DNA of 64,000 nucleotides, from the NCBI RefSeq assembly GCF_040954835.1, contig NC_090709.1, forward strand, positions 38,430,776 to 38,494,775, read 5' to 3'. This DNA comes from Lepisosteus oculatus (taxonomy: Eukaryota; Chordata; Actinopteri; Semionotiformes; Lepisosteidae). The notes below the pieces were generated by a model. That model saw only the letters and a list, made by a program, of their open reading frames with translations. It did not search any database and was not told where the DNA came from. Every line of letters begins with the position of its first letter. The stretch's first letter is position 1. Shown here piece by piece: positions 12,901 through 60,918 of the stretch. A program made the position numbers and the translations under genes.

Positions 12901-14860
12901 TGAGACACAGAGAGAGAGAGAGGGGTTAATACACACACAGCACACACCCTCCAGAGCAGCTGAGACTGAGACACAGAGAGAGAGAGAGGGGTTAATACAC
13001 ACACAGCACACACCCTCCAGAGCAGCTGAGACTGAGACACAGAGAGAGAGAGAGGGGTTAATACACACACAGCACACACCCTCCAGAGCAGCTGAGACTG
13101 AGACACAGAGAGAGAGAGAGGGGTTAATACACACACAGCACACACCCTCCAGAGCAGCTGAGACTGAGACACAGAGAGAGAGAGAGGGGTTAATACACAC
13201 ACAGCACACACCCTCCAGAGCAGCTGAGACTGAGACACAGAGAGAGAGGGGTTAATACACACACAGCACACACCCTCCAGAGCAGCTGAGACTGAGACAC
13301 AGAGAGAGAGAGAGAGGGGTTAATACACACAGCACACACCCTCCAGAGCAGCTGAGACTGAGACACAGAGAGAGAGAGGGGTTAATACACACACAGCACA
13401 CACCCTCCAGAGCAGCTGAGACTGAGACAGAGAGAGAGGGGTTCATACAGACACACTGACTGGACACTCCAGTACATGAACACTGCACTGAGAGAGAGAG
13501 GGGTTCATACAGACACACTGACTGGACACTCCAGTACATGAACACTGCACTGAGAGAGAGAGGGGTTCATACAGACACACTGACTGGACACTCCAGTACA
13601 TGAACACTGCACTGAGAGAGAGAGGGGTTCATACACACACACTGACTGGACACTCCAGTACATGAACACTGCACTGAGAGAGAGAGGGGTTCATACAGAC
13701 ACACTGACTGGACACTCCAGTACATGAACACTGCACTGAGAGAGAGAGGGGTTCATACAGACACACTGACTGGACACTCCAGTACATGAACACTGCACTG
13801 AGAGAGAGAGGGGTTCATACAGACACCCTGACTGGACACTCCAGTACATGAACACTGCACTGAGAGAGAGAGGGGTTCATACAGACACCCTGACTGGACA
13901 CTCCAGTACATGAACACTGAACTGAGAGAGAGAGGGGTTCATACACACACACTGACTGGACACTCCAGTACATGAACACTGCACTGAGAGAGACCCAGAG
14001 AGCAGGGGACATCTTTCTCATTTTCCAATATTCTTATTAATAAATAATGGAACAAGAGATCTCTGTGTCTTACAGGAGTGGATATCTTTCCTCAGGACCC
14101 AGAACTCGGAGTTGTCTTCAAATCGCACAAGACAGCACTGTCTGACCTCATCCACCTGCGAGAGAGAGTGGACACTGACACCCACTGACACCCAGCACTG
14201 ACACACTGACACCCAGCACGGACAAACTGACACCCACTGACACACAGCACAGACACGCTATCAGATGCTGTCAGACACAGAAACACAATCAGGAACAGAC
14301 ACATACAGATTCAGTTAGACACAGACGCACAGACTGACACACAGCCAGATACAGACTGACACACAATTAGATGCAGTCAGTCAGACACACACACAGTCAG
14401 ACAGTCAGACACCCACACACAGTGTGACACACAGACACACAGACAGTCAGACACACAGTCAGACCGTCAGACTGACACACACACACACACACAGTCAGAG
14501 TGACACAAAGACACACAGACATACACACACAGTGAGAGTGACACACAGACACACAGTCAGACAATCAGACTGACACACACACACAGTCAGAGTGACACAC
14601 AGACACACACACACAGTCAGACCGTCAGACTGACACACACACACAGTCAGAGTGACACACAGACACAGTCAGACCGTCAGACTGACACACAGACACACAG
14701 TCAGACAGTCAGACTGACACACAGACACACAGTCAGACTGACACACACACACGGTCAGACTGACACACACACACACACTGACTCTTTTGACGTTGCCCAG
14801 GTACAGCAGTCCGTCGCTCCAGCGCGCCAGCACGTCGTCTCCCTCACCGAGACTCGACAT
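730..14860 (-). CDS. PHF1: PHD finger protein 1 (Polycomb-like 1), complete, 14 coding exons
   Basis: Nuclear accessory subunit of PRC2. In the family the Tudor domain binds H3K36me3 and the winged-helix EH region binds CpG DNA, helping PRC2 deposit H3K27me3. Coding exons in transcript order: 14860-14783, 14155-14074, 10681-10601, 10514-10420, 9702-9554, 8798-8703, 7257-7189, 6749-6626, 6049-5982, 4174-4022, 3659-3581, 2710-2607, 2355-2272, 988-730. All junctions are GT/AG, phases agree, and the total of 1521 nt gives 506 aa (human about 567). Domain order is Tudor (about 8-52), PHD1 (58-112), PHD2 (157-212), EH (217-258) and a C-terminal chromo-like segment. The start is the first ATG after the acceptor at 14863; the mammalian N-terminal extension is missing. 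Nearly every intron is filled by its own minisatellite. The paralogues MTF2 and PHF19 are possible, but synteny and the C-terminal match favour PHF1. Confidence 0.93.
1021..2262. repeat. About 60-bp minisatellite filling PHF1 intron 13
   Basis: About 20 copies of a compound unit built from GTACAGTGATATACAGGGT and TGTCAGACTGTGTTACAGAC, with small indels. The array occupies nearly all of the intron between exons 13 and 14. The long open frames over it are an artefact of the repeat. Confidence 0.95.
2272..2710 (-). CDS. PHF1: PHF1 exons 12 and 13 (linker region)
   Basis: Exon 12 is 2710-2607 and exon 13 is 2355-2272. Exon 12 encodes [20 protein letters not shown], like the NQSYQG...YNF stretch of mammalian PHF1. 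Exon 13 begins with [13 protein letters not shown], matching the mammalian SSPIRMFASFHPS motif. The codon split across them gives Cys. The intron between (2356-2606) is a low-complexity run of GACTGTCT repeats. Confidence 0.9.
2785..3575. repeat. About 65-bp minisatellite in PHF1 intron 11
   Basis: About a dozen copies of a unit holding ACAGGAGACACAGTGAGAGA and CCCCTCAGTCATAAACACAC. In the sense (minus) direction it is rich in CTCTCTCT, that is, polypyrimidine-like. It ends at the exon 11 donor. Confidence 0.92.
3581..4174 (-). CDS. PHF1: PHF1 exons 10 and 11
   Basis: Exon 10 (4174-4022) starts [18 protein letters not shown], the conserved basic motif that follows the EH region in Polycomb-like proteins. 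It continues into a proline-rich linker. Exon 11 (3659-3581) encodes a basic serine-rich stretch ([20 protein letters not shown]). Confidence 0.9.
3725..4015 (-). repeat. About 64-bp dispersed minisatellite, sense orientation, PHF1 intron 10
   Basis: Four to five copies of a unit with CTGTCCTCTCTGGACAGC and GTCCAGGCTGTGGTCACTGA. The same family, reverse-complemented and therefore also sense to its host gene, sits upstream of RGL2 at 22590-23165. Confidence 0.88.
4270..5945. repeat. (TCCAG)n compound minisatellite filling PHF1 intron 9
   Basis: Over 30 units, each a constant block AATCACACAGTCAGGACACT followed by GTAGT(C/G)CAG and a variable number of TCCAG pentamers. Pentamer number varies between units, so this is a nested VNTR that should be highly polymorphic. 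Confidence 0.95.
5982..6049 (-). CDS. PHF1: PHF1 exon 9
   Basis: Encodes [20 protein letters not shown] then KDR across the junction, matching the mammalian LSDTPK...LLSALNSHKDR segment between the EH region and the KKCLFGL motif. Acceptor CTCTCTCAG, donor CAG|GTGAG, phase 0 to 2. Confidence 0.93.
6050..6625. repeat. PHF1 intron 8, with a 41-bp repeat at 6405-6605
   Basis: Five copies of about 41 bp containing GGGTAATTGGTTAACGAGG lie next to the exon 8 donor. The unit contains TTGGTTAACGAGG, so GTTAAC recurs. The remainder, 6110-6400, is non-repetitive and shows no conserved coding frame. Confidence 0.85.
6626..6749 (-). CDS. PHF1: PHF1 exon 8: EH / winged-helix region
   Basis: Encodes [20 protein letters not shown] followed by [20 protein letters not shown], one of the most conserved parts of Polycomb-like proteins. 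In the family this extended-homologous region binds unmethylated CpG DNA. Donor CCG|GTAGGA. Confidence 0.96.
6815..7175. repeat. About 40-bp minisatellite in PHF1 intron 7
   Basis: Eight or nine copies of a unit holding GACAGAGACACAGAGACACA and CAGACTGCCCCCTGGG. In the sense direction each unit offers a TCTCTGTCCCCAG-like pseudo-acceptor. Confidence 0.9.
7189..8798 (-). CDS. PHF1: PHF1 exons 6 and 7: second PHD finger
   Basis: Exon 6 (8798-8703) encodes [20 protein letters not shown] then [11 protein letters not shown]. Exon 7 (7257-7189) encodes [20 protein letters not shown]. With CYCYC at the end of exon 5 these supply the C4-H-C3 zinc ligands of PHD2, including the canonical WFHEACT histidine. 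Confidence 0.96.
7325..8695. repeat. About 37-bp minisatellite filling PHF1 intron 6
   Basis: About 36 units mixing two variants, one with CACTGGGACAGTACAGTATA and one with CCAGTACAGTACAGTATA, each followed by ACACTACACC(G/T)TCTCTC. Nothing else is visible in the intron. Confidence 0.95.
8805..9130. repeat. Degenerate repeat of CTGTGACATCACCTC in PHF1 intron 5
   Basis: About ten imperfect copies of a 25-35 bp unit with TGTGACATCACCTCACTGTA. TGACATCA resembles a CRE/AP-1 half-palindrome, but I claim no regulatory role. Confidence 0.75.
9225..9420 (-). repeat. Dispersed G-tract element in PHF1 intron 5
   Basis: Two adjacent copies of a dispersed element with CTTCTGTACA(C/T)AGAGGGGGG and GGGGAACAAGCTG. 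Relatives lie at 26310-26485 (RGL2 intron 4, sense) and 37775-37925 (RGL2 3' UTR, antisense). Here the orientation is sense to PHF1. Confidence 0.85.
9554..9702 (-). CDS. PHF1: PHF1 exon 5: PHD1-PHD2 linker
   Basis: Encodes [20 protein letters not shown], then [20 protein letters not shown] and [10 protein letters not shown]. This matches the mammalian linker (KRGGALKKG...LPYGLKGLDWD...QQSYCYCGGPGE) and supplies the first cysteines of PHD2. Confidence 0.96.
9720..10360. repeat. GTGTGTCAGTATGTCAGTG low-complexity array, PHF1 intron 4
   Basis: A variable array of TGTCAGTGT-type words with higher-order copies of about 95-100 bp. It is purine/pyrimidine alternating (TG-rich) and fills the intron. 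Confidence 0.92.
10420..10681 (-). CDS. PHF1: PHF1 exons 3 and 4: first PHD finger
   Basis: Exon 3 (10681-10601) encodes [20 protein letters not shown] then CRKCRHG. Exon 4 (10514-10420) encodes [20 protein letters not shown] then [11 protein letters not shown]. Together they give the C4HC3 ligands of PHD1. The exon 3 acceptor is ambiguous: AG at 10682-10683 or a second in-frame AG six bases upstream, which would add two residues. The first 34 or so bases of exon 3, with its acceptor, are the seed of the array at 10690-13435. Confidence 0.94.
10690..13435 (-). repeat. Exon-derived minisatellite: about 43 copies of the PHF1 exon 3 acceptor
   Basis: A 60-72 bp unit repeated about 43 times, varying mainly in the length of a (CT)n run. 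In the sense direction each unit is a pyrimidine tract, an AG acceptor, the first exon 3 bases (CTGCTCTGGAGGGTGTGTGC, then TGTGTGTG) and GTATTAACCCC leading into the next pyrimidine tract. The copies share the exon sequence exactly up to TGTGTGTG, so the array arose by duplicating the intron-exon boundary. TTAAC fits the yUnAy branch-point pattern. Sense frames are open through most of the array. Confidence 0.95.
13436..13995 (-). repeat. 62-bp sense-oriented 3'-splice-site satellite in PHF1 intron 2
   Basis: Nine copies of the 62-bp unit. In the sense (minus) direction each has TGCAGTGTTCATGTACTGG, GTGTCCAGTCAGTGTGT and GAACCCCTCTCTCTCTCAG. It abuts the exon 3 array, with which it shares the AACCCCTCTCTCTC tail. 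Confidence 0.96.
14074..14860 (-). CDS. PHF1: PHF1 exons 1 and 2 (coding): Tudor domain
   Basis: The first coding exon (acceptor at 14863, ATG 14858-14860, end 14783) encodes [20 protein letters not shown] then LGNVKR. The second (14155-14074) encodes [20 protein letters not shown] then LRKDIHS. Trp14, Tyr20, Phe38 and Phe44 sit where the family's aromatic cage for H3K36me3 lies. The first donor is AGA|GTCAGT. Confidence 0.94.
14165..14780. repeat. GACACACAGTCAGACTGACA array, PHF1 intron 1 (coding)
   Basis: Irregular CA-rich repeats of CACACAGTCAGA and CAGACTGACACAC words with no fixed period. No gene is seen. Confidence 0.85.
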
Positions 14861-15189
14861 TCCTGAGCGACAGAGGGGACAGGTCAGTGGGTCAGTGACC
14901 CCCGCCGGACACACGCGTGGCGTGGGCAGCGCCGGCCACGCCGCCGCCCCAGCCGCACGCGCCTCCGAAAACACGGGCTGAGCTCCCGTCTCGGGCCACG
15001 GCGACCACAAACTCGCACGAAAAACAACGGCAACAACAACAACAACAAAAAAAAACACAACACAAATACGCAACGACCGCAAAGGCGATGAGAATAAGGG
15101 CAACGTAGCTCCCACGCAGGAGGAATACAAATAGAAACACGTCCGCCTAGAGACAGAGAGACAGAGACATTTCCAGACGGACAGACCCC

Positions 15190-15790
15190 GTGCCTACCTG
15201 CTATCTGGCGAGCTGGCGGGTCTGTCCGTCTGGGTCTGTCACTCATTTCAAAACCTCGACATGAAACCTCTCGTCACAGTGATTTCTCTCTCTCTCTCCC
15301 TCTCTCCTCTTCTCCTCTCTTCTCTCTCGCCTCCGGCTCTCGGTCTCGGTCTCTGACTTCACTCCAGCGTCCGCTGTCCGTCAGCCTGTCTGTGTTTCCG
15401 TGTTTCTGCGTCTCCGTACCGCCGTGTTTCTGTCCGTCTCTGTGTCTCTGTCCGTCTGTCACTCAGCAATGTCACCCACCCACCCTCGCCTCTCCGCCTG
15501 TCGCTCCGTCTCGGTCGGTCAGTCGGTCGGTCCGCCGGCCCGTGTCGTCATGCTCCGGCTCGGCTCGGCTCGGGTCGGCTCGGTTCCGTTCGGCTGGGCT
15601 CGGCTCGGCTCTTCCCCCGGCCCGGCCCGGCTCGGCTCGGCTCGGCTCGGTTCGGCCCCGCCCCGGCCCGGCCCGGCCCGTCCCGGCCGCCGCCGCTCCG
15701 TATCCGCGAGTGACGATGGGGCTCCGCCGGGGATCAGGGAGCGCGCGGAGCCGCCATGTCGCTGTCTGGGCTGCGTGTGACGCAGGGAGA
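15190..15790 (-). promoter_or_regulatory. CpG-rich PHF1 promoter / 5' UTR region
   Basis: A G+C- and CpG-rich stretch at 15480-15780 with GGCTCGGCTCGG runs lies directly upstream of the PHF1 coding exons. A plausible noncoding first-exon donor is AGCAG|GTAGGC at 15198 on the minus strand, with the next acceptor at 14863. The transcription start is not resolved. Confidence 0.6.
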
Positions 15791-15924
15791 AAAACAGGGA
15801 GACCGGGAGAGGGATCGGGATAGAAACAGAGAGAGGGAGAGAGGGACCGGGATGAAGAGAGAGAGGGGGGGAGAGACGGAGAGAGACTCCACGGGCTCTC
15901 CTTATACTGTACCTTGTGTCCCTG

Positions 15925-17150
15925 TAGAGACGGCATTTACTGTAGTATACCACAACACACTGTGGTATACACTGTAGTATACTGTAACACACTGTGGTAA
16001 ACTGTGGTATATACTGTAGTATACCGTAACACACTGTGGTATATACTGTAGTATACCACAACACACTGTGGTATACACTGTAGTATACTGTAACACACTC
16101 TGGTAAACTGTGGTATATACTGTAGTATACCGTAACACACTGTGGTATATACTGTAGTATACCACAACACACTGTGGTATATACTGTAGTATACTGTAAC
16201 ACACTGTGGTAAACTGCAGTATATACTGTAGTATGCCACAACACACTGTGGTAAACTGTGGTATATACTGTAGTATACTGTAACACACTGTGGTAAACTG
16301 TGGTATATACTGTAGTATACCACAACACACTCTGGTATATACTGTAGTATACCACAACACACTGTGGTAAACTGTGGTATATACTGTAGTATACCGTAAC
16401 ACACTGTGGTATATACTGTAGTATACCACAACACACTGTGGTATATACTGTAGTATACCACAACACACTGTGGGAAACTGCAGTATATACTGTAGTATGC
16501 CACAACACACTGTGTGTAAACTGTGGTATATACTGTAGTATACTGTAACACACTGTGGTAAACTGTGGTATATACTGTAGTATACCACAACACACTGTGG
16601 TAAACTGTGGTATATACTGTAGTATACCACAACACACTCTGGTATATACTGTAGTATACCACAACACACTGTGGTAAACTGTGGTATATACTGTAACACA
16701 TTGTGGTAAACTGTGGTATATACTGTAGTATACCACAACACACTGTGGTAAACTGTGGTATATACTGTAACACACTGTGGTAAACTGTGGTAGATACTGT
16801 AGTATACCGTAACACACTGTGGTAAACTGTGGTATATACTGTAACACACTGTGGTAAACTGTGGTATACACTGTAGTATACTGTAACACACTGTGGTAAA
16901 CTGTGGTATATACTGTAGTATACCACAACACACTGTGGTAAACTGTGGTATATACTGTAACACACTGTGGTAAACTGTGGTATATACTATAGTATACCAC
17001 AACACACTGTGGTAAACTGTGGTATATACTGTAGTATACTGTAACACACTGTGGTAAACTGTGGTATATACTGTAGTATACCACAACACACTGTGGTAAA
17101 CTGTGGTATATACTGTAGTATATGTACTGTAGTACTGTAGATCTGTAGTA
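15925..17150. repeat. AT-rich hairpin-prone minisatellite between PHF1 and RGL2
   Basis: About 1.2 kb of units mixing GGTATATACTGTAGTATACC and CACAACACACTGTGGTAAAC in 30-45 bp periods. CCACAACACACTGTGG and the GTATAC/GTATAC ends are self-complementary, so single strands should fold. The long minus-strand open frames rich in Tyr, His and Val come from the repeat. Confidence 0.93.
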
Positions 17151-17159
17151 CAGTCCATC

Positions 17160-17945: not shown

Positions 17946-18360
17946 GGGATAACAGAGAGCTCCGTCCTCAGAGAAAGGCAGCAGTTACTCTTGTTCTGCA
18001 GTTAACAACAGTAATAATGACTCTAGCTATTCCACGCTTAGTGATAGTGAACGCTTAATAATTGTCATTAATATCGGGAAAGACTTATTGGCACGTATTC
18101 CGCTAATGTTAAGGTAATTAACCAGAGGTCGCAGAGGAGAGACAGGCAGACAGCACCACACAGACGGAGAGAGGCTGAGACACTGAGAGACTCACTACGG
18201 CCATGAACGCTGACAGACTGAAGCAGTTTCACACAGGAAGTGTGTGTGTGTGCAGTGAACAACACTGAGTCACTTCCTCTCCAACTTCCCTCTATACAAA
18301 CACAGCTGGAAATAGAAACAAAGGCCGAGCTCTCAGAGAACAGTGCACAGTGTTTGAAGT
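17946..18360. other. Non-repetitive spacer
   Basis: Non-repetitive DNA between two arrays. I see no conserved coding frame, RNA gene or clear promoter. Confidence 0.5.
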
Positions 18361-18364
18361 GTGC

Positions 18365-23673: not shown

Positions 23674-26600
23674 GTGAGTTCCCCGTCTCACAGCCAGGGG
23701 TCAGACCCGAGCTCCCCGGATCTACCCCACGACACACAGCCCGAAGTAGGGAGAGGGATTGAGGAAGAGGAGGGAGGGGTCAGAGGGTGGACGTGAGGTC
23801 ACGGCTAGTTCCTGCAATTGTCCACACTGACAATGGCACTTCCTGAACCCAGAGCACTGAGAGACGGGCAGGGAGACTTCCTGTATAAAACAGCCCAGTC
23901 CCGTACCTTATAACCCAGTCCAGTGCTCTCCATCCCAGCCCAGTGCCCTCTGAACCAAAAGAGAGTCTCAGGGGTTCAGACAGAGAGACTCAGGGGTTCA
24001 GACAGAGAGACTCAGGGGTTCAGACAGAGAGACTCAGGGGTCAGACAGAGTCTCAGGGGTCAGACAGAGTCTCAGGGGTCAGACAGAGTCTCAGGGGTCA
24101 GATAGAGACTCAGGGGTTCAGACACTCAGGGGTCAGACAGAGAGACTCAGGGGTTCAGACACTCAGGGGTCAGACAGAGAGACTCAGGGGTTCAGACAGA
24201 GAGACTCAGGGGTTCAGACAGAGACTCGGGGGTTAAGGCAGAGACTCAGGGGTTCAGACAGAGAGACTCAGGGGTTCAGACAGAGAGACTCAGGGGTCAG
24301 ACAGAGAGACTCAGGGGTCAGACAATGAGACTCAGGGGTCAGACAGAGAGACTCAGGGGTTCAGACAGAGAGACTCAGGGGTTCAGACAGAGAGACTCAG
24401 GGGTTCAGACAGAGACTCAGGGGTCAGACAGAGAGTCTCAGGGGTTCAGACAGAGACTCAGGGGTCAGACAGAGAGACTCAGGGGTTCAGACAGAGACTC
24501 GGGGGTTAAGGCAGAGACTCAGGGGTTCAGACAGAGAGACTCAGGGGTTCAGACAGAGAGACTCAGGGGTCAGACAGAGAGACTCAGGGGTCAGACAATG
24601 AGACTCAGGGGTCAGACAGAGAGACCCAGGGGTCAGACAGAGAGACTCAGGGGTTCAGACAGAGTCTCAGGGGTTCAGACAGAGACTCAGGGGGTCTCCC
24701 AGGCCCTGCAGAGCAGTCTGATTCCTGCAGGCTGTTCTGAGGTTCAGGCTGCTCAGGAAGTGCAGGTCTGGTCTTGTCCGAGGTAGCCCTGTCGCGCTGA
24801 CGTCACTGGGGCTGCGCTCTTCCTGGATATGAGCAGAGCACCGACACACAGGCATGATCTTCCCTTCTGTTCTCAGACTGGACACAAACCGGACCCTGGG
24901 CACATGAAGACCACCTGGTACTGTCCACTGGAGCCGGTAAGAGTCTCTGTCTCTGTCTCTGTCTCTCTCTCTGTCTCTCAGTGCAGTGTTCATGTACTGG
25001 AGTGTCCAGTCAGTGTGTCTGTATGAACCCCTCTCTCTCTCAGTGCAGTGTTCATGTCCTGGAGTGTCCAGTCAGTGTGTCTGTATGAACCCCTCTCTCT
25101 CTCAGTGCAGTGTTAATGTACTGGAGTGTCCAGTCAGTGTGTCTGTATGAACCCCTCTCTCTCAGTGCAGTGTTCATGTACTGGAGTGTCCAGTCAGTGT
25201 GTCTGTATGAACCCCTCTCTCTCTCAGTGCAGTGTTCATGTACTGGAGTGTCCAGTCAGTGTGTGTGTATGAACCCCTCTCTCTCTCAGTGCAGTGTTCA
25301 TGTACTGGAGTGTCCAGTCAGTGTGTGTGTATGAACCCCTCTCTCTCTCAGTCCTCAGCTGTGTCGGAAGTAGAGGAGGAAGGTCTTATCTACACTGTGG
25401 TGGTGAAACAGCAGCCCAGTACCTCCAGTGGGACAGGGGTGAGACTTATATGACTCTTCTGTTGTGAAGTGATCTGCAGTTACCCATAGTCAGGGACAGA
25501 GGGCGCTGTCCACATTGTAAGACTGTGTACAATCTGAGACACAGGCCCTGCCTACACGTCAGTATCTTCAGAGAGATCATTAAAATATGTGAGAACTGCA
25601 TCTCTCAGTGTGCGCTGTGTATACCCCTCTCTCTCTGTGTGTGTGTATTAACCCCTCTCTCTCTCAGTGTGTGTATTACCCCTCTGTGTGTGTGTGTGTA
25701 TTAACCCCTCTCTCTCTCAGTGTGTGTGTATTAACCCCTCTCTCTCAGTGTGTGTATTACCCCTCTCTCTGTGTGTGTGTATTAACCCCCCTCTCTCTTA
25801 GTGTGTGTGTGTATTACCCCTCTCTCTCTGTGTGTGTTTATTAACCCCCCTCTCTCTCTCAGTGTGCGGGTGTGTTGACCCCTCTCTCTCTCTCAGTGTG
25901 CGGGTGTGTTGACCCCTCTCTCTCTCTCAGTGTGCGGGTGTGTTGACCCCTCTCTCTCTCTCTCAGTGTGTGTGTGTGTTGACCCCTCTCTCTCTCTCAG
26001 TGTGTGTGTGTTGACCCCTCTCTCTCTCTCTCAGTGTGTGTGTGTATTAACCCCCCTCTCTCTCTCTCTCAGTGTGTGTGTGTATTAACCCCCCTCTCTC
26101 TCTGTGTGTGTGTATTAACCCCCCTCTCTCTCTCCAGCCCGCAGTCTCGCGCTCCCAGTGTGTGAAAGGTGGCACCGAGGAGAAGCTCATCCTGCACCTC
26201 CTGCGCTCCTTCGCCCTGGGAGACCCCTCCTACGTCCCCATCTTCCTGTCCACCTATCGCACCTTCACCACGGCGCAGAGGGTCCTGCAGGTCCTGGAGC
26301 AGAGGTGACCCCTCGTTCCCCACCCCCACCCCCCTCTGTGTACAGCAGAGCCTCCTGTCCTGACTGGGGGAGCTCACCCAGCTGTGTGTGGAGAGAAGCC
26401 AGGGTATTGGCTTCAACCACAGGGCTGGGCAGCCTGTTCCCCACCCCCACCCCCCTCTGTGTACAGAAGAGCCTCCTGTCCTGAGTCAGTTCAATTCAAT
26501 TCAAGGTGCTTTATTAGCATGGCCGATGGGTACAATCAGCTTTGCCAAAGCAAATGAAAGTAATGATATTTACATTAAAAAAACAAAAAATAGAAGTAAA

Positions 26601-29600
26601 ATAAAATCTAGCAGTGCCAGGCGAGGGATCTGCAGCCTCGTCGCCCCCTGCTGGCCAGGGCTGCAGGCCTCATGCCCAGCCTGAGGGATTGTGGGATCAG
26701 CGGTTCCGAATTTCCTGTTTCAAACCTCCTGTTTGTGTTGCAGGTTACAGTGCCACCTTGTGGAGAGACATGAGACCAGCAGACAGGAGCAGCTTGATTT
26801 TAATACGTGAGTCTTTCTAGTGCAGTGTTAATGTGCCCTCTGTCAGGGTGTCTGTGTGAACCCCTCTCTGTCTCAGTGCAGTGTTCATGTACTGGAGTGT
26901 CCAGTCAGTGTGTCTGTATGAACCCCTCTCTCTCTCTCAGTGCAGTGTTCATGTCCTGGAGTGTCCAGTCAGTGTGTCTGTATGAACCCCTCTCTCTCTC
27001 AGTGCAGTGTTCATGTACTGGAGTGTCCAGTCAGTGTGTCTGTATGAACCCCTCTCTCTCTCAGTGCAGTGTTCATGTACTGGAGTGTCCAGTCAGTGTG
27101 TGTGTGTATGAACCCCTCTCTCTCTCAGTGCAGTGTTCATGTACTGGAGTGTCCAGTCAGTGTGTGTGTATGAACCCCTCTCTCTCAGTGCAGTGTTCAT
27201 GTACTGGAGTGTCCAGTCAGTGTGTCTGTATGAATCCCTCTCTCTCTCAGTGCAGTGTTCATGTACTGGAGTGTCCAGTCAGTGTGTGTGTATGAACCCC
27301 TCTCTCTCTCAGTGCAGTGTTCATGTACTGGAGTGTCCAGTCAGTGTGTCTGTATGAACCCCTCTCTCTCTCAGTGCAGTGTTCATGTACTGGAGTGTCC
27401 AGTCAGTGTGTGTGTATGAACCCCTCTCTCTCTCAGGGCAGTGTGCTCAGTGTTCAGTGCCTGGCTCAGTGGTTACCCAGAAGACTTCCTGTCCCTGCGT
27501 GACCCCTCACCCCTGGACCGTCTTGCCTTTCTAATGCCCCGCGACTCCGCGGGATGCGAGGTCAAAGGTCGCATTGTGAACCTGGCGGAGGAGCTGAGGA
27601 GGAGAGGGGGGGCCCCGCCTGCCGGTGAGCGCAGCCTCGTCTCGTTGACACCCCGCCGGTCAGTGGCCCCGCCTGGCTCGCTGCCTCGCTCACACGGCTC
27701 TGTCCTCCCCTCCTCAGGCAGCGAGGGCGCCCTCCCGGTGACCTCTGACCCCCTGCCCCCCGACTTCGACGTGACCACAGTGCTGGGCTTCCCAGCCGAG
27801 CTGATCGCTGAGCAGCTGACCATGATTGAGACTGTGAGTGAGCTCTCTCCTGTGTCTCCTGTCTCTCCTGTGTCTCCTGGGTCTCCTGTCTCTCCTGTGT
27901 CTCCTGTCTCTCAGGGGCTGTTTGTCAAGGTGGTGCCCCATCACTGCCTGGGCTCGCTGTGGTCTCAGCGCTGTGTCTCCTGTGTCTCCTCTGTCTCCTG
28001 GGTCTCCTGTGTCTCCTCTGTCTCCTGTCTCTCAGGGGCTGTTTGTCAGGGTGGTGCCCCATCACTGCCTGGGCTCGCTGTGGTCTCAGCGCTGTGTCTC
28101 CTGTGTCTCCTGTGTCTCCTGTGTCTCCTGGGTCTCCTGGGTCTCCTTTGTCTCCTCTGTCTCCTGTCTCTCAGGGGCTGTTTGTCAAGGTGGTGCCCCA
28201 TTACTGCCTGGGCTCGCTGTGGTCTCAGCGCTGTGTCTCCTGTGTCTCCTCTGTCTCCTGTCTCTCAGGGGCTGTTTGTCAAGGTGGTGCCCCATCACTG
28301 CCTGGGCTCGCTGTGGTCTCAGCGCTGTGTCTCCTGTGTCTCCTCTGTCTCCTGTCTCTCAGGGGCTGTTTGTCAAGGTGGTGCCCCATCACTGCCTGGG
28401 CTCGCTGTGGTCTCAGCGCTGTGTCTCCTGTCTCTCAGGGGCTGTTTGTCAAGGTGGTGCCCCATCACTGCCTGGGCTCGCTGTGGTCTCAGCGCTGTGT
28501 CTCCTGTCTCTCAGGGGCTGTTTGTCAAGGTGGTGCCCCATCACTGCCTGGGCTCGCTGTGGTCTCAGCGCTGTGTCTCCTGTCTCTCAGGGGCTGTTTG
28601 TCAAGGTGGTGCCCCATCACTGCCTGGGCTCGCTGTGGTCTCAGCGCTGTGTCTCCTGTCTCTCAGGGGCTGTTTGTCAAGGTGGTGCCCCATCACTGCC
28701 TGGGCTCGCTGTGGTCTCAGCGCTGTGTCTCCTGTCTCTCAGGGGCTGTTTGTCAAGGTGGTGCCCCATCACTGCCTGGGCTCGCTGTGGTCTCAGCGCT
28801 GTGTCTCCTGTCTCTCAGGGGCTGTTTGTCAAGGTGGTGCCCCATCACTGCCTGGGCTCGCTGTGGTCTCAGCGCTGTGTCTCCTGTCTCTCAGGGGCTG
28901 TTTGTCAAGGTGGTGCCCCATCACTGCCTGGGCTCGCTGTGGTCTCAGCGCTGTGTCTCCTGTCTCTCAGGGGCTGTTTGTCAAGGTGGTGCCCCATCAC
29001 TGCCTGGGCTCGCTGTGGTCTCAGCGCTGTGTCTCCTGTCTCTCAGGGGCTGTTTGTCAAGGTGGTGCCCCATCACTGCCTGGGCTCGCTGTGGTCTCAG
29101 CGCTGTGTCTCCTGTCTCTCAGGGGCTGTTTGTCAAGGTGGTGCCCCATCACTGCCTGGGCTCGCTGTGGTCTCAGCGCTGTGTCTCCTGTCTCTCAGGG
29201 GCTGTTTGTCAAGGTGGTGCCCCATCACTGCCTGGGCTCGCTGTGGTCTCAGCGCTGTGTCTCCTGTCTCTCAGGGGCTGTTTGTCAAGGTGGTGCCCCA
29301 TCACTGCCTGGGCTCGCTGTGGTCTCAGCGCTGTGTCTCCTGTCTCTCAGGGGCTGTTTGTCAAGGTGGTGCCCCATCACTGCCTGGGCTCGCTGTGGTC
29401 TCAGCGCTGTGTCTCCTGTCTCTCAGGGGCTGTTTGTCAAGGTGGTGCCCCATCACTGCCTGGGCTCGCTGTGGTCTCAGCGCTGTGTCTCCTGTCTCTC
29501 AGGGGCTGTTTGTCAAGGTGGTGCCCCATCACTGCCTGGGCTCGCTGTGGTCTCAGCGCTGTGTCTCCTGTCTCTCAGGGGCTGTTTGTCAAGGTGGTGC

Positions 29601-30833
29601 CCCATCACTGCCTGGGCTCGCTGTGGTCTCAGCGCTGTGTCTCCTGTCTCTCAGGGGCTGTTTGTCAAGGTGGTGCCCCATCACTGCCTGGGCTCGCTGT
29701 GGTCTCAGCGCTGTGTCTCCTGTCTCTCAGGGGCTGTTTGTCAAGGTGGTGCCCCATCACTGCCTGGGCTCGCTGTGGTCTCAGCGCTGTGTCTCCTGTC
29801 TCTCAGGGGCTGTTTGTCAAGGTGGTGCCCCATCACTGCCTGGGCTCGCTGTGGTCTCAGCGCTGTGTCTCCTGTCTCTCAGGGGCTGTTTGTCAAGGTG
29901 GTGCCCCATCACTGCCTGGGCTCGCTGTGGTCTCAGCGCTGTGTCTCCTGTGTCTCCTGTCTCTCAGGGGCTGTTTGTCAAGGTGGTGCCCCATCACTGC
30001 CTGGGCTCGCTGTGGTCTCAGCGCTGTGTCTCCTGTCTCTCAGGGGCTGTTTGTCAAGGTGGTGCCCCATCACTGCCTGGGCTCGCTGTGGTCTCAGCGC
30101 TGTGTCTCCTGTCTCTCAGGGGCTGTTTGTCAAGGTGGTGCCCCATCACTGCCTGGGCTCGCTGTGGTCTCAGCGCTGTGTCTCCTGTCTCTCAGGGGCT
30201 GTTTGTCAAGGTGGTGCCCCATCACTGCCTGGGCTCGCTGTGGTCTCAGCGCGATAAGAAGGGCCAGGAGGGGGCGTGTCCGTCAGTCCGGGCCACAGTC
30301 CGCCAGTTCAACCGGCTGGCCAACGCCGTCACGGCCTCCTGCCTTCTCAACACCAGCCTGCGGGGGCAGCAGAGAGCCAGGCTGCTGGAGAAGTGGATCA
30401 GTGTGGCCGAGGTCTCTGTGTGTGTGTGTGTGTGTGTGTGTGACTGATCGCTCTGTGTGTGTGTGACTGATCGCTCTGTGTGTGTGTGTGTGTTACTGAT
30501 CGCTCTGTGTGTGTGTGTGTGTTACTGATCGCTCTGTGTGTGGTTGTGTGACTGATCGCTCTGTGTGTGGTTGTGTGACTGATCGCTCTGTGTGTGTGTG
30601 ACTGATCGCTCTGTGTGTGTGTGTGTGTGACTGATCGCTCTGTGTGTGTGTGTGACTGATCGCTCTGTGTGTGTGTGTGACTGATCGCTCTGTGTGTGTG
30701 ACTGATCGCTCTGTGTGTGTGTGTGTGACTGATCGCTCTGTGTGTGTGTGTGACTGATCGCTCTGTGTGTGTGTGACTGATCGCTCTGTGTGTGTGTGTG
30801 ACTGATCGCTCTGTGTGTGTGTGTGACTGATCT

Positions 30834-30867
<34 letters not shown>

Positions 30868-33800: not shown

Positions 33801-36800
33801 TACACACAGCAATATCTCACACACTGGGACACACATACAAATACACACTGCAATGTTACAGGACCCTGAACAGACATATACAAGTATGTCTTAGTGCTGG
33901 TGTGTGTGCCTGTCTCCGACTCCCTGTCTCTCTCCCCGATTCCCTGTGTGCCTGTCTCCCTGTCTCTCTCTCCCTCAGACAGCACCTCGGGGGACTGTCC
34001 CCTACCTGGGCACCTTCCTCACTGACCTCACCATGCTGGACACCGCTGTCAAGGACCGGCTGGAGGTGAGTCAGGCCGCGAGACAGACCAGTGGAGAAGC
34101 ACACAGAAAGTGGCCAATGGCTGTTACCTGTCTCCGAGCTCTGCCCTCTGCTCTCTTCTCTTTCAGAATGGATACATCAACTTCGACAAGAGGCGCCGGG
34201 TGAGTCTGAGAATCTCTCTCTCAGTGCAGTGTTCATGTCCTGGAGTGTCCAGTCAGTGTGTCTGTATGAACCCCTCTCTCTCTCAGTGCAGTGTTCATGT
34301 CCTGGAGTGTCCAGTCAGTGTGTCTGTATGAACCCCTCTCTCTCTCAGTGCAGTGTTCATGTCCTGGAGTGTCGAGTCAGTGTGTCTGTATGAACCCCTC
34401 TCTCTCTCAGTGCAGTGTTCATGTCCTGGAGTGTCCAGTCAGTGTGTCTGTATGAACCCCTCTCTCTCAGTGCAGTGTTCATGTACTGGAGTGTCCAGTC
34501 AGTGTGTCTGTATGAACCCCTCTCTCTCTCAGTGCAGTGTTCATGTACTGGAGTGTCCAGTCAGTGTGTCTGTATGAACCCCTCTCTCTCTCAGTGCAGT
34601 GTTCATGTACTGGAGTGTCCAGTCAGTGTGTGTGTATGAACCCCTCTCTCTCTCAGTGCAGTGTTCATGTACTGGAGTGTCCAGTCAGTGTGTCTGTATG
34701 AACCCCTTTCTCTCTCAGTGCAGTGTTCATGTACTGGAGTGTCCAGTCAGTGTGTGTGTATGAACCCCTCTCTCTCTCAGTGCAGTGTTCATGTACTGGA
34801 GTGTCCAGTCAGTGTGTGTGTATGAACCCCTCTCTCTCTCAGTGCAGTGTTCATGTACTGGAGTGTCCAGTCAGTGTGTGTGTATGAACCCCTCTCTCTC
34901 TCAGTGCAGTGTTCATGTACTGGAGTGTCCAGTCAGTGTGTGTGTATGAACCCCTCTCTCTCTCAGTGCAGTGTTCATGTACTGGAGTGTCCAGTCAGTG
35001 TGTGCGTATGAACCCCTCTCTCTCTCAGTGCAGTGTTCATGTACTGGAGTGTCCAGTCAGGGTGTGTGTGTGAACCCCTCTCTCTCTCAGTGCAGTGTTC
35101 ATGTACTGGAGTGTCCAGTCAGTGTGTCTGTATGAACCCCTCTCTCTCAGTGCAGTGTTCATGTACTGGAGTGTCCAGTCAGTGTGTCTGTGTGAACCCC
35201 TCTCTCTCTCAGTGCAGTGTTCATGTACTGGAGTGTCCAGGTGGGCAGTGTTGTATATTAACCCCTCTGTCTCTCTCTCTCAGGAGTTTGAGGTTTTGGC
35301 TCAGATTCGGCTGCTTCAGTCCTCGTGTAAGAACTGCTCTTTCACCCCCAGCCCTCCCTTCCTGCAGTGGTACACCTGTGTGCCCCAGCTGACCGAGGAC
35401 CGGAGGTACAGTGTGTCCTGACCCCTGGTCACCCTCCCCCTGACCCCTGACCCCTGACCCCTGACCGTGAGCCTCTGTCTTTCAGCTACCAGCTGTCCTG
35501 TCAGATCGAGTCCTCCAGTGACCCTGCTGTCCCAAGTCGAGTCCTCAAACCCACCCTGGTGATCACGCACTGCGCTGAGTGAGTACAGACCGCTGTCTCC
35601 CTGGCGTCTCCTACTCCGCTGCAGTGTTCAGGAACTGTGTTCAGGAACTCTCTCTCTCTCAGCCTTCTCTCCTCAGTGGCCAGTCCTGGGTTCGAGTCTG
35701 AAGGCTCCTTCGACTTCGGTTCTCCTGTTAACCACCTCCTGACACGACTGGCCAAGGTGACCTCCTGTTGACCGACTGACCGGACTGATCGAACCGACTG
35801 ACCGATTTACTGACGGATCGAGTGACCGATGGGAGTTCGTGAGGCTGCAGGGGTGTCTGAACTGTGCTTTGTGTTCAGACGGCTCCCTGACTTCCCAGTA
35901 ACCTGCTGGCCTTGTCCTCCGTGTTGCAGCACATGAAGTCGCCCTCGGTGTCCTGTCTGGATGTTGACTCCTCCCCTCCCCCCGTCGGCCCCGCCTCCGC
36001 CATGTTGAGCCCGCCCCCCGCCAACATCAAGTCGCACCGACGTTCCGCCTCCTGCGGCACAACCCCGCCCACAACAGACAAGGGGGCGGGGCCAGATATA
36101 AGGATCATCAGGATCGGAATGGACCTCCAAGATGGCAACATGTATCGCAGTATACTGGTACAGAGCGACTAATACAGACCCCAGAGACACTCCTCACACA
36201 GAGAGAGGAGTCCAGACCCTCACACAGACCCCAGAGACACTCCTCACACCGAGAGAGGAGTCCAGACCCTCACACAGACCCCAGAGGCACTCCTCACACA
36301 GAGAGAAGAGTCCAGACCCTCACACAGACCCCAGAGGCACTCCTCACACAGAGAGAGGAGTCCAGACCCTCACACAGACCCCAGAGACACTCCTCACACA
36401 GAGAGAGGAGTCCAGACCCTCACACAGACCCCACAGACACTCCTCACACAGAGAGAGGAGTCCAGACCCTCACACAGACCCCAGAGACACTCCTCACACA
36501 GAGAGAGGAGTCCAGACCCTCACACAGACCCCAGAGGCACTCCTCACACAGAGAGAGGAGTCCAGACCCTCACACAGACCCCAGAGACACTCCTCACACA
36601 GAGAGAGGAGTCCAGACCCTCACACAGACCCCAGAGACACTCCTCACACAGAGAGAGGAGTCCAGACCCTCACACAGACCCCAGAGACACTCCTCACACA
36701 GAGAGAGGAGTCCAGACCCTCACACAGACCCCAGAGACACTCCTCACACAGAGAGAGGAGTCCAGACCCTCACACAGACCCCAGAGACACTCCTCACACA

Positions 36801-47110: not shown

Positions 47111-47120
47111 CACCCCCAGG

Positions 47121-49410: not shown

Positions 49411-49442
<32 letters not shown>

Positions 49443-51237
49443 CCCCTCCTCGTCCCCCTCCTCCTCGATGAGGAAGGTGCCGGCGCCGCCGGCCGAGCCC
49501 CCGTCCTCGCCGGCGGCCGCGCCGGAGGCGGGGGCGCCCCCGAACCCCGCGCCCCCGGCCTCGCGGGGGCTGAAGTAGTTGGTGCTGCTGGGGGACTGGC
49601 TCTCGCTGGCCCGGCTGGAGCCCAGCGAGGGGCGGCGGCCCGGGGCGGCGGGGGGGTCCCCCGCGCCCGCCCGCGCCCCCGGCCGCCCCCCCGCCGGCCC
49701 GCGCCCCTCCTTCAGCAGCTCCGTGCACTTGTCCACGATGTGCCACATCTGCAGCACGCTGCCCACCGTCAGGTAGTTGACGATCTCCTCGCTCAGCATG
49801 CGCAGGCGGCCCGTGTAGGCGCAGCCCAGCACGCTCTCGAACGCCAGGGGGTCCAGGACCGCGGGCAGGGAGACCGAGGACACGTTCTTCAACAGCACCT
49901 GGACACAGGGAGAGGGGTTCACACACACACCCTGACTGGACACTCCAGTACATGAACACTGCACTGAGAGAGAGAGGGGTTCATACAGACACACTGACTG
50001 GACACTCCAGTACATGAACACTGCACTGAGAGAGAGAGGGGTTCATACACACACACCCTGACTGGACACTCCAGTACATGAACACTGCACTGAGAGAGAG
50101 AGGGGTTCATACAGACACACTGACTGGACACTCCAGTACATGAACACTGCACTGAGAGAGAGAGGGGTTCATACAGACACACTGACTGGACACTCCAGTA
50201 CATGAACACTGCACTGAGAGAGAGAGGGGTTCATACACACACACTGACTGGACACTCCAGTACATGAACACTGCACTGAGAGAGAGAGGGGTTCATACAC
50301 ACACACTGACTGGACACTCCAGTACATGAACACTGCACTGAGAGAGAGAGGGGTTCATACAGACACACTGACTGGACACTCCAGTACATGAACACTGCAC
50401 TGAGAGAGAGAGGGGTTCATACACACACTGACTGGACACTCCAGGACAGTAACACTGCACTGAGAGAGAGAGGGGTTCATACAGACACACTGACTGGACA
50501 CTCCAGTACATGAACACTGCACTGAGAGAGAGAGGGGTTCATACACACACACTGACTGGACACTCCAGTACATGAACACTGCACTGAGAGAGAGAGGGGT
50601 TCATACAGACACACTGACTGGACACTCCAGTACATGAACACTGCACTGAGAGAGAGAGGGGTTCACACACACACACTGACTGGACACTCCAGTACATGAA
50701 CACTGCACTGAGAGAGAGAGGGGTTCATACACACACCCTGACTGGACACTCCAGGACATGAACACTGCACTGAGAGAGAGAGGGGTTCATACAGACACAC
50801 TGACTGGACACTCCAGTACATGAACACTGCACTGAGAGAGAGGGGTTCATACAGACACACTGACTGGACACTCCAGTACATGAACACTGCACTGAGAGAG
50901 AGGGGTTCATACAGACACACTGACTGGACACTCCAGTACATGAACACTGCACTGAGAGAGAGAGGGGTTCATTCAGACACCCTGACTGGACACTCCAGTG
51001 TGGTAACTCTGCTCTGAGACAGACCTGATCGTGGAAGTAGGGTGAAGAGGCCGCCAACACACACCGATGAGCCCTGAAGACACGGCCCTGCACCTCGATG
51101 GCCAGATCACACAGCTGCCCCTCCAGACGCTGACGGTTCAGACTGGCCAGCAGAGCCCCCTGGACTGAGGGGAAACACACCTGCACCACTCCGCCACCGG
51201 GGGCGCTAGAGGCACTGCTGCTACAGCCTGACTCCAT
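47121..51237 (-). CDS. ZBTB22: Zinc finger and BTB domain-containing protein 22, complete, 3 coding exons
   Basis: Nuclear BTB zinc-finger protein, presumed transcriptional regulator. Coding exons: 51237-51025 (213 nt), 49898-49026 (873 nt), 47897-47121 (777 nt), giving 620 aa (human 634). The BTB domain spans about residues 18-125 across exons 1-2. A long acidic/glycine-rich middle follows, and three zinc fingers lie at about 470-550. Junctions are CAG|GTCTGT, CAG|GTGTGT and two CAG acceptors, all phase 0. A noncoding 5' exon is expected at the CpG island near 52.35 kb, since CTCAG immediately precedes the exon carrying the ATG. Both upstream introns are filled by the 62-bp satellite in the sense direction. 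Coding parts of exons 2 and 3 are extremely G+C-rich compared with the introns. Confidence 0.95.
47925..48035 (-). repeat. TTCAATTCAAGGTGC-family dispersed element, sense, ZBTB22 intron
   Basis: Reverse complement of the element at 26490-26610 (CAATTCAAGGTGCTTCATTA, GACCGATGGGCACAATCAG, TTGCCAAAGCAAAT). In each gene it lies in the sense direction. Confidence 0.75.
48040..49020. repeat. GAGAGTGAGAGTGAGGGGGA purine array, ZBTB22 intron 2
   Basis: About 1 kb of nearly pure purine strand with a 50-60 bp higher-order unit (GAGGTAGAGAGTGAGAGTGA plus GAGGGGGAGG). In the sense direction it is a kilobase polypyrimidine tract. Such mirror-like purine runs can form triplex DNA. Confidence 0.93.
49026..49898 (-). 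CDS. ZBTB22: ZBTB22 exon 2: second half of BTB and acidic middle
   Basis: Starts VLLKNVSSVSLPAVLDPLAF then SVLGCAYTGRLRMLSEEIVN and YLTVGSVLQMWHIVDKCTEL, as in mammalian ZBTB22. It continues with SRASESQSPSSTNYFSPRE, a Glu run, LPRRHWVVVKTE and HPLSISDVRTLSGA, all with mammalian counterparts (NYFSPRE, QKHWVYVK, LSISDVRTLS). Confidence 0.95.
49899..51024 (-). repeat. 62-bp sense satellite filling ZBTB22 intron 1
   Basis: About 17 copies in the minus-strand (sense) direction, beginning about 20 bases after the exon 1 donor and ending at the exon 2 acceptor (GAACCCCTCTCCCTGTGTCC, then AG). Nothing else lies in the intron. Two runs at 50830-50950 lack one GA pair and form a local sub-family. Confidence 0.96.
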
Positions 51238-51240
51238 GAG
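51025..51240 (-). CDS. ZBTB22: ZBTB22 exon 1 (coding): BTB start
   Basis: ATG at 51235-51237, three bases after the acceptor. Encodes MESGCSSSASSAPGGGVVQV, CFPSVQGALLASLNRQRLEG and QLCDLAIEVQGRVFRAHRCV then [11 protein letters not shown], the canonical BTB core ([31 protein letters not shown] in human). Confidence 0.95.
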
Positions 51241-51835
51241 CTGAGAGAGAAGAGAGAGAGAGAGGGGTTAACACACAACACTGACCACCTGGACACTCCA
51301 GGACAGTAACACTGCACTGAGAGAGAGAGGGGTTCATACAGACACACTGACTGGACACTCCAGTACATGAACACTGCACTGAGAGAGAGAGGGGTTCATA
51401 CAGACACACTGACTGGACACTCCAGTACATGAACACTGCACTGAGAGAGAGAGGGGTTCATACACACACACTGACTGGACACTCCAGTACATGAACACTG
51501 CACTGAGAGAGAGAGGGGTTCATACACACGCACTGACTGGACACTCCAGTACATGAACACTGCACTGAGAGAGAGAGGGGTTCATACAGACACACTGACT
51601 GGACACTCCAGTACATGAACACTGCACTGAGAGAGAGAGGGGTTCATACAGACACACTGACTGGACACTCCAGTACATGAACACTGCACTGAGAGAGAGA
51701 GGGGTTCATACACACACACTGACTGGACACTCCAGTACATGAACACTGCACTGAGAGAGAGAGGGGTTCATACAGACACACTGACTGGACACTCCAGTAC
51801 ATGAACACTGCACTGAGAGAGAGAGGGGTTATCAC
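51241..51835 (-). repeat. 62-bp sense satellite in the ZBTB22 5' UTR intron
   Basis: Nine copies in the sense direction. The tail at 51241-51275 (GTTAACCCCTCTCTCTC, then TTCTCTCTCAG) is the acceptor of the exon with the start codon. Confidence 0.94.
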
Positions 51836-52137: not shown

Positions 52138-52324
52138 CTCTCCAAGTATTAGAAGCATAAACACGACTCCTGTATCACAGACCGTCACATCATCATCATC
52201 ATCGTTTTTATTTCTATTGACCTGCTCGTATACGATTTATTTATTTATGTATTTATTTATTTTAAATGCGCGTCTACTCCCCACGCACAACTGCAGCTGG
52301 GGGGTTGTAACACAATCTCTCGTC

Positions 52325-52700: not shown

Positions 52701-52734
52701 CAAGGGCAAAATAAACACCCCCCGCCCCGCTGCA

Positions 52735-55700: not shown

Positions 55701-56990
55701 CTGGGCCCACATCTACAGCACAGGACTCTGAGCCCACAGACTGACCCCAACAGCTACAGCACAGGGCTCTGAGCCCACAGCTCCAGCTACAGCACAGGGC
55801 TCTGACCCCACAGCTCCAGCACAGGGCTCTGACCCCACAGCTACAGCACAGGGCTCTGAGCCCCACAGATACAGCTACAGCACAGGGCTCTGAGACCACA
55901 GACTGACCCCAACAGCTACAGCACAGGGCTCTGAGACCACAGACTGACCCCACAGCTCCATCACAGGGCTCTGACCCCACAGACTGACCCCAACAGCTAC
56001 AGCACAGGGCTCTGAGACCACAGACTGACCCCAACAGCTACAGCACAGGGCTCTGAGACCACAGACTGACCCCACAGCTCCATCACAGGGCTCTGACCCC
56101 ACAGACTGACCCCAACAGCTACAGCACAGGGCTCTGACCCCCACAGCTACAGCTACAGCACAGGGCTCTGAGCCCACAGACTGACCCCCACAGCTACAGC
56201 ACAGAGCTCTGACCCCACAGCTACAGCACAGAGCTCTGAGCCCACAGACTGACCCTCACAGCTACAGCACAGGGCTCTGAGACCACAGACTGACCCCTCA
56301 GCTACAGCACAGGGCTCTGAGCCCACAGACTGACCCCACAGCTACAGCACAGGGCTCTGAGCCCACAGACTGACCCTCACAGCTACAGCACAGGGCTCTG
56401 ACCCCCACAGCTACAGCTTCAGCACAGGGCTCTGAGCCCACAGACTGACCCCACACCTACAGCACAGGGCTCTGAGCCCACAGACTGACCCCACAGCTCC
56501 AGCACAGGGCTCTGAGCCCACAGACTTACCCCACAGCTCCAGCACAGGGCTCTGGGCCCACATCTACAGCACAGGGCTCTGAGCCCACAGACTGACCCCA
56601 ACAGCTACAGCACAGGGCTCTGAGCCCACAGCTCCAGCTACAGCACAGGGCTCTGAGCCCACAGACTGACCCCACAGCTCCAGCACAGGGCTCTGACCCC
56701 ACAGCTACAGCACAGGGCTCTGAGCCCCACAGATACAGCTACAGCACAGGGCTCTGAGACCACAGACTGACCCCACAGCTCCATCACAGGGCTCTGAGCT
56801 CACAGACTGACCCCACAGCTCCAGCACAGGGCTCTGAGCCCACAGACTGACCCCACAGCTCCAGCACAGGGCTCTGACCCCCACAGCTACAGCTACAGCA
56901 CAGGGCTCTGAGCCCACAGACTGACCCCACAGCTCCAGCACAGAGCTCTGAGCCCACAGCTCCAGCACAGGGCTCTGAGCCCACAGACTG
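52735..56990. repeat. 4.25-kb satellite between ZBTB22 and KIFC1
   Basis: Well over 100 units of 20-42 bp made from CAGCTACAGCACAGGGCTCT, GAGCCCACAGACTGACCCCA and CAGCTCCAGCACAGGGC. A larger segment is itself duplicated: the order at 55000-55760 recurs nearly unchanged at 55860-56620, and one at 52800-53060 recurs at 53150-53400. Long minus-strand open frames (Cys/Leu/Trp-rich) are repeat artefacts. Confidence 0.95.
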
Positions 56991-56999
56991 CAAAACCGG

Positions 57000-60083: not shown

Positions 60084-60918
60084 ACAAATCAAATGGAGAA
60101 AGACGTGAGTCTCTGTATTGACCCTGTGAGTCTCTCAGTGTGTGTGTATGAACCCCTCTCTCTCTCTCAGTGCAGTGTTCATGTACTGGAGTGTCCAGTC
60201 AGTGTGTGTGTATGAACCCCTCTCTCTCTCAGTGCAGTGTTCATGTACTGGAGTGTCCAGTCAGTGTGTGTGTATGAACCCCTCTCTCTCTCAGTGCAGT
60301 GTTCATGTACTGGAGTGTCCAGTCAGCGTGTCTGTATGAACCCCTCTCTCTCAGTGCAGTGTTCATGTACTGGAGTGTCCAGTCAGTGTGTGTGTATGAA
60401 CCCCTCTCTCTCTCTCTCAGTGCAGTGTTCATGTACTGGAGTGTCTAGTCAGGGTGTCTGTGTGAATCCCTCTCTCTCTCAGTGCAGTGTTCATGTACTG
60501 GAGTGTCAAGTCAGTGTGTCTGTGTGAACCCCTCTCTCTCTCAGTGCAGTGTTCATGTACTGGAGTGTCCAGTCAGTGTGTCTGTATGAACCCCTCTCTC
60601 TCTCAGTGCAGTGTTCATGTACTGGAGTGTCCAGTCAGTGTGTCTGTATGAACCCCTCTCTCTCTCTCAATGTACTGGAGTGTCCAGTCAGTGTGTGTGT
60701 ATGAACCCCTCTCTCTCGGTGCAGTGTTCATGTACTGGAGTGTCCAGGTGGTCAGTGTTGTGTATGAACCCCTCTCTCTCTCTCTGTATCTCCAGAGGTC
60801 TCCCCTGCAGGTGGTCAATGGGATGAAGTCCGCCTCTCGTTTGCCTCTGCCCTCAGTGAAGAGGCAGATCTCAGCCTCGGGGGTGGACAGCGGCCCAGGA
60901 CACCCCCAGCCTGCCCAG
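60084..60918 (+). CDS. KIFC1: KIFC1 first two coding exons
   Basis: The exon at 60084-60104 carries ATG at 60093 and encodes only MEKD before GAC|GTGAGT. The next (60796-60918) encodes RSPLQVVNGMKSASRLPLPS then VKRQISASG. MEKDRSPLQVVNG parallels human MDPQRSPLLEVKG, supporting the tiny first exon. Confidence 0.85.

Follow-up and report, generated by a model that had tools for sequence, protein, structure and literature searches.

The window analyzed here is a stretch of 64,000 nucleotides of Lepisosteus oculatus (C14:38430776-38494775, where C14 denotes contig NC_090709.1 in a genome of 1.2 Gb and 813 contigs), in which arrays of a 62-bp repeat occupy introns of PHF1, RGL2, ZBTB22, and KIFC1, gene names that are our reading of the translations. 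The repeat unit reads CAG|TGCAGTGTTCATGTACTGGAGTGTCCAGTCAGTGTGTCTGTATGAACCCC(TC)n, and each unit thus provides a pyrimidine tract and an AG; a branch-point-like stretch, recognized by eye, the (TC)n tract, and CAG are present in every unit. The explanation that we regard as probable is that these acceptor-bearing arrays were copied from intron to intron, mainly between neighboring genes, by DNA recombination. The copying of array ends with their splice-site tails between introns is indicated by shared last units, by a PHF1-derived array in an intron of SYNGAP1, and by a ZBTB22 exon and its duplicate, and these findings also support gene conversion between introns, which a sequence-only reading of the window had listed as an alternative. 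Together with the junction of the PHF1-derived array, the regional homogenization of the arrays, and the position of their edges in TC tracts, they are the observed part of the explanation; the pathway of recombination, the anchoring in TC tracts, and the use of the acceptors in RNA are inferred.

Array ends shared between genes

One variant of the last unit, CCAGGTGG[T/G]CAGTGTTGT, has four matches in the genome at two or fewer mismatches in a pattern search, and at all four sites it is the final unit before the predicted acceptor. The matches in KIFC1, ZBTB22, and a ZBTB22 duplicate are exact, and that in RGL2 has two mismatches. They lie within about 151 kb and on both strands, with ZBTB22 on the minus strand and RGL2, KIFC1, and the ZBTB22 duplicate, which is 141 kb away, on the plus strand. 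The window arrays that end in this variant were located by nhmmer and pattern search at 34222..35273 (plus strand) in the RGL2 intron 34200-35283, where the last unit is the shared variant CCAGGTGGGCAGTGTTGT with two mismatches to the other three, at 51256..51815 (minus strand) before the first coding exon of ZBTB22, and at 60133..60780 (plus strand) in the KIFC1 intron 60105-60795. A rare internal variant of the unit, intended as an unbiased sampler, occurs at only two places in the genome, both of them ZBTB22 copies.

In the PHF1 intron, a 62-bp array in sense orientation (13430..13990, minus strand; nhmmer and sequence) lies 5' of a 66-bp array (10653..13438, minus strand, about 42 copies; Tandem Repeats Finder [TRF] and sequence). 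The latter is a mirage, in which each unit holds the gene's own acceptor and about 30 to 35 nt of the following PHF1 exon. At two or fewer mismatches the 66-bp unit has 53 matches in the genome (12 on the plus strand and 41 on the minus strand), at two loci only: 41 are in PHF1, and 12 (13 by a shorter exact motif) are in one intron of SYNGAP1, 75 kb from PHF1 and on the opposite strand. In both genes the 66-bp array lies between the 62-bp array and the predicted acceptor, which is the tail of the 66-bp array; the two loci are colinear for about 380 bp across the junction of the 62- and 66-bp arrays, and the predicted acceptor of SYNGAP1 is the PHF1 tail CTCTGTGTCTCAG. Because the exon piece in the 66-bp unit belongs to PHF1, the direction of transfer is from PHF1 to SYNGAP1.

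Between two arrays lies a ZBTB22 exon (51025..51240, minus strand) that has 2 differences, both synonymous, from its counterpart in the duplicate over 216 nt; the next exon has 24 over its first 192 nt (Fisher p = 7e-7). The duplicate lies at region coordinates (C14 position minus 38330775) of about 9000-19200 on the other strand. The upstream flank at 51839-53000 has no blastn match in the duplicate (query, 45000-53000), and on the downstream side the matches are limited to a transposon-like piece (91%) and a zinc-finger exon (84%), so that the copied tract most likely ends in the arrays. The array in the BTB intron of the duplicate is broken by an insertion of about 1 kb that starts with AATTC repeats.

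In RGL2, KIFC1, and ZBTB22, as in PHF1 and SYNGAP1, the array end is common and the sequence beyond it differs in the flanks examined; a shared tract in unrelated flanks is what ectopic gene conversion requires. It is highly improbable that the arrays arose by in-place expansion of mirages and segmental duplication of a gene-dense region, without transfer between unrelated introns. Tandem repeats are indeed abundant in C14:38330776-38594775, where 219 non-redundant arrays (period of at least 15) cover 151,710 of 264,000 bases, in-place mirages are present in PHF1 and RGL2, and ZBTB22 is duplicated. However, the two groups of genes named above share the array end only, and on opposite strands, and the last units and the PHF1 66-bp unit already contradict such an origin, barring assembly errors in array placement.

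Regional homogenization and array edges

Arrays were compared across the window with 100 kb on either side, a 264-kb region of which 10 kb reads N, and across 14 pieces around the first-listed copies on contigs C3, C4, C6, and C7; of the resulting 38 arrays, the C14 region contributes 24 and the other contigs contribute 14, and the sample is nonrandom, drawn from one region and first-listed copies. Among the 35 of these with at least four full units, the mean unit distance is 0.0319 within arrays, 0.0330 between arrays of one contig, and 0.0543 between contigs. The longest identical stretch shared by arrays of different genes on one contig has a median of 152 bp and a maximum of 335 bp (193 pairs), and that shared between contigs has a median of 84 bp and a maximum of 216 bp (314 pairs), in 33 of the 38 arrays and with lengths as measured, with no length correction. 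The arrays are not independent founders.

As a path of transfer, an RNA-mediated route is less likely than DNA recombination, and we hold it to be unlikely; here a spliced intron or its 3' part would be reverse-spliced or reverse-transcribed into another pre-mRNA or gene and would replace the 3' part of the intron there. The transcription orientation of arrays on both strands, the introns that are repeat almost from donor to acceptor, and the exact stop of the PHF1-derived tract in SYNGAP1 at the PHF1 intron end would all fit this route. However, antisense arrays exist, and the nearness of the shared copies (about 151 kb for the last units and 75 kb for PHF1 and SYNGAP1), along with the regional homogenization, favors exchange at the DNA level.

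Judged from the edges of all 38 arrays, an array usually has the form (TC)n[unit]k(TC)n. Of the 24 C14-region arrays, 22 have their 3' edge within unit columns 53-62, which form the TC tract (20 of 24 with weak partial last units included), and 19 have their 5' edge within unit columns 1-6. The smallest case, a single 62-bp unit between two TC tracts, is in an intron of a PBX2-like gene (C14:38534893-38534951). Donors reading AGGTRAGT occur five times within 30 nt of an array start, and the reverse-complement control has no match. The shorter pattern GTRAGT, searched within the same distance, gave 71 matches, many of which look like internal units; they were rejected as donors because one base change makes GTRAGT internally, matches recur within one array, and one match lies inside a locus examined here. 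The tail CAG followed by G has 44 matches, at least three of them in the array of a GPSM3-like gene, a count that holds for G alone and from which no conclusion is drawn. The matches to these last two patterns lie in blocks on ten contigs (C3, C4, C6, C7, C12, C14, C18, C26, C30, and C279) and are not evenly spread.

Host introns and orientation of the 62-bp family

A 40-nt core of the unit has 8689 + 9107 matches in the genome in a pattern search at three or fewer mismatches, that is, at least 17,796 copies, and the reversed core, searched in the same way, has none, so that the family is not due to chance. No Rfam family reached its gathering score in a scan of the window. The tail GTGTGTGTATTAACCCC(TC)nCAG is common to the 62-bp unit, the 66-bp unit of PHF1, and a roughly 34-bp array in RGL2 (25601..26132, plus strand; TRF and sequence), which has the tail GTGTGTATTAACCCC(TC)nCAG and ends near the next RGL2 acceptor. 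To judge from this common tail, an older acceptor module may have come first, with the 62-bp unit being that module plus about 30 nt, and the 62-bp unit is perhaps a mirage of some founder gene.

The seven arrays that had been described in introns of four genes were all recovered by nhmmer with the 62-bp consensus, plus TRF, close to the positions first given for them, and their positions here are those of the window. The three beyond those located above lie at 24979..25347 (plus strand) in the RGL2 intron 24937-25351, at 26819..27432 (plus strand) in the RGL2 intron 26807-27436, starting 12 nt after the start of that intron, and at 49907..51016 (minus strand) in the intron within the ZBTB22 BTB domain (51024-49899). 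As the sequence-only reading had it, most of these introns are nearly all repeat. The repeat fraction is 0.89 for RGL2 24937-25351, 0.97 for both RGL2 26807-27436 and 34200-35283, 0.99 for ZBTB22 51024-49899, 0.94 for KIFC1 60105-60795, and 0.98 for the PHF1 intron 14073-10688 with the 62- and 66-bp arrays together, a range of 0.89-0.99 in six delimited introns that leaves out the 5' intron of ZBTB22, to which no donor is assigned. The acceptors, predicted from frame continuity, also agree with that reading: in six of the seven arrays the last unit, or its TC tract, supplies the AG as its tail, and in PHF1 the exon-derived 66-bp array lies between. Pfam searches of the exon translations found BTB, RasGEF_N, PHD, Kinesin, and RasGEF. 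The BTB and RasGEF_N matches span a removed array (in RGL2, with the join made without the first five residues after the acceptor), and the ZBTB22 exons joined without the array match the BTB profile over positions 1-108 of 110.

RGL2 also carries mirage-type units of 76 bp and longer, in which an RGL2 acceptor is repeated together with the beginning of the exon that follows it (27846..30252, plus strand; TRF and sequence), in about 25 tandem copies, the last of which continues into the remaining exon. Upstream of ZBTB22, a 40-bp unit is repeated about 107 times in tandem (window 52899-56959). The host genes are linked with NOTCH-like, PBX2-like, GPSM3-like, and major histocompatibility complex (MHC)-like genes, a linkage in keeping with a non-teleost ray-finned fish such as a gar.

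Array orientation follows transcription in all seven arrays of the window, as had been claimed, but as a strict rule this fails outside it. With orientation assigned by hand, 28 of the 38 arrays are sense to the host gene, 5 are antisense, and 5 are unassigned. Sense orientation accounts for 28 of the 33 assigned arrays (p = 7e-5) and for 25 of 30 without the ZBTB22 duplicate (p = 3e-4), and it is a bias, not a law. The sense arrays are spread over introns of 19 genes (names by reading, ZBTB22 duplicate counted), among them SYNGAP1 (five), DAXX, PBX2-like, GoLoco, and NOTCH-like genes, Elongin B (ELOB), and BCKDHA. Exons of Elongin B and BCKDHA joined without the array match PDB chains across the junction, and those of a SRAP-domain gene match Pfam across the removed array. 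For PBX2-like and NOSIP-like genes, names based on reading, no Pfam family was found, and the kinase and ARMC5 matches fall below Pfam's cut-off. In 23 of the 27 sense cases read by hand, the predicted acceptor is formed by the array tail, sometimes a degenerate last unit, and donors adjoin only some arrays.

The antisense arrays are in DAXX, adjoining the donor CAAG|GTGAGAGAG; in a PARP-regulatory-domain gene with the donor GTGAGAGAGAAT; in an EF-hand gene with the donor CAG|GTACAGG at the array edge; in an Ig gene; and deep in SYNGAP1, the exon 5' of it being recognizable by comparison with the human protein. The unassigned arrays are those at 186342, 194827, and 234567 (C14 position minus 38330775), C4:3199150, and C6:53732117; the array at 234567 closely follows the final NOTCH-like exon, and its orientation would be antisense were it transcribed with that gene. 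A second dispersed minisatellite, of 50 bp and without an acceptor, occurs at five places of the C14 region, one of them window 36174-36810, within or next to SYNGAP1, RGL2, KIFC1, DAXX, and NOTCH-like genes; its orientation is mixed, with three of the five arrays in the same and two in the opposite orientation.

We give little credence to selection alone, under which arrays would be inserted anywhere and those in antisense or in the wrong place would be lost. The strong sense bias agrees with it, as does the ability of sense tails to act as acceptors, but it leaves the shared last units and the PHF1 piece in SYNGAP1 unexplained. Moreover, selection would rather disfavor sense arrays because sense copies add many cryptic acceptors. 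Selection likewise disfavors sense copies of intronic transposons.

Quite unlikely as well is an origin of the arrays as mobile introns, or introners, that made new introns. The ZBTB22 intron 51024-49899 splits the BTB domain and is 99% repeat, in line with such an origin, and the coding sequence of human ZBTB22 is presumably in one exon. In addition, some introner families bring only the 3' splice site, according to the parts of PMC9860276 consulted. On the other hand, no terminal inverted repeats (TIRs) or diagnostic target-site duplications are visible by eye at the array edges examined, the CAGGT flanking the ZBTB22 intron is what ordinary splice sites give, TC on both sides is likewise undiagnostic, and among the 38 arrays 5 are antisense and 5 are not tied to a gene strand. 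Most host introns, those of ELOB, BCKDHA, DAXX, SYNGAP1, and the PARP-type gene among them, look ancient in the light of vertebrate gene structure, which also counts against it. The sequence-only reading had proposed introner-like elements that generate or colonize introns; colonization is borne out by the last units, the PHF1-derived array, and the copied ZBTB22 exon, and generation stays hypothetical.

Proposed mechanism and known systems

In the explanation by intron-to-intron copying, which we favor, the 62-bp repeat would be a minisatellite built round a splice acceptor that spreads by ectopic recombination directed by homology, either as gene conversion or through template switching. Of the two ends of a copied tract, one would lie in an array or TC tract and the other in the TC-rich tract beside the recipient's AG. 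Since the TC tract is on the sense strand at acceptors, copies would land in transcription orientation and the acceptor of the recipient, from then on provided by the repeat, would stay functional; some introns thus seem to have had their ends rewritten by repeats. Unequal exchange would then lengthen the array and homogenize it regionally. The antisense minority may have used a mirror-image anchor, the GA tract after the donor GT (GTGAGAGAG), or a TC tract elsewhere, and the antisense arrays of DAXX and the PARP gene are at donors reading GTGAGAGAG. On this model, sense copies are expected at acceptors, and antisense ones at donors of the GTGAGAGA type.

Several observations weigh against this explanation. 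Some array edges lie outside TC tracts (both edges at C7:237025, the left edge in ELOB, and others), and the 3'-edge test leans on pyrimidines that the acceptor itself supplies. The strict antisense-donor pattern has no match, by pattern count alone. Of the assigned arrays, 5 of 33 are antisense, and outside C14, where 9 of 12 are sense, the bias by itself does not reach significance (p = 0.15). The comparison of the 50-bp family with the 62-bp family (3:2 versus 28:5) is small and not significant (p = 0.22). In addition, the low divergence of the ZBTB22 exon could partly reflect selection, and the RNA-mediated route predicts equally well that the SYNGAP1 tract stops exactly where the PHF1 intron ends.

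A more far-reaching idea, which we consider speculative and improbable as a whole, is that of an active system in a vertebrate lineage whereby the 3' end of one intron is overwritten by that of another via an acceptor-carrying minisatellite that hops in transcription direction, converts neighboring exons, and at times makes new introns. The best candidate for intron creation is the 99%-repeat intron that splits the BTB domain of ZBTB22. Since cases such as PHF1 to SYNGAP1 show the source as well as the recipient, the movement of splice sites as DNA cassettes becomes a testable question, and the repeat family is linked to exon homogenization between duplicated genes.

Among known systems, the Drosophila 1.688 family, as far as the partly consulted sources describe it, resembles the 62-bp family in its dispersed short arrays of one family. 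Local homogenization is reportedly a feature of the 1.688 euchromatic satellites. What sets the 62-bp family apart from them is its association with splice acceptors and with the direction of transcription. Introners, in the portions of PMC9860276 consulted, likewise place similar intronic sequence with its own splice site in many unrelated genes, but they create introns by insertion, whereas the 62-bp tandem arrays colonize or rewrite introns and have no TIRs by eye. Intron gain by tandem genomic duplication also links tandem duplication in genes to intron structure; there, in the consulted text of PMC4974935, a single duplication goes with a single gained intron, whereas here the arrays sit in introns and move between genes. 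In titles and abstract openings, subscription papers lying outside this scope, no dispersed acceptor-bearing minisatellite in vertebrate introns was found; the excerpts consulted give no exon structure for ZBTB22 (PMC1971071) and nothing on intronic repeats (PMC9974502).

The closest known system is the mirage minisatellites of amphioxus, described for Adh3 and the globin genes BflGb6 and BflGb9, in which tandem units include the intron-exon boundary with its AG and which have been proposed to aid intron gain (PMC3087553, from the sections consulted). On that description, the PHF1 66-bp and RGL2 76-bp arrays fit directly, as their units span the intron-exon boundary of the host. The 62-bp unit does not, its sequence after CAG not being derived from the host exon. 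A locus-specific origin in place is also not what is seen here, given at least 17,796 core copies and the presence of the PHF1 unit in SYNGAP1. In the consulted portions of the source the amphioxus mirages are described gene by gene, whereas here, in a vertebrate, the 62-bp family has more than 17,000 copies in one genome, and ends of its arrays were copied from one gene to another, unrelated one.

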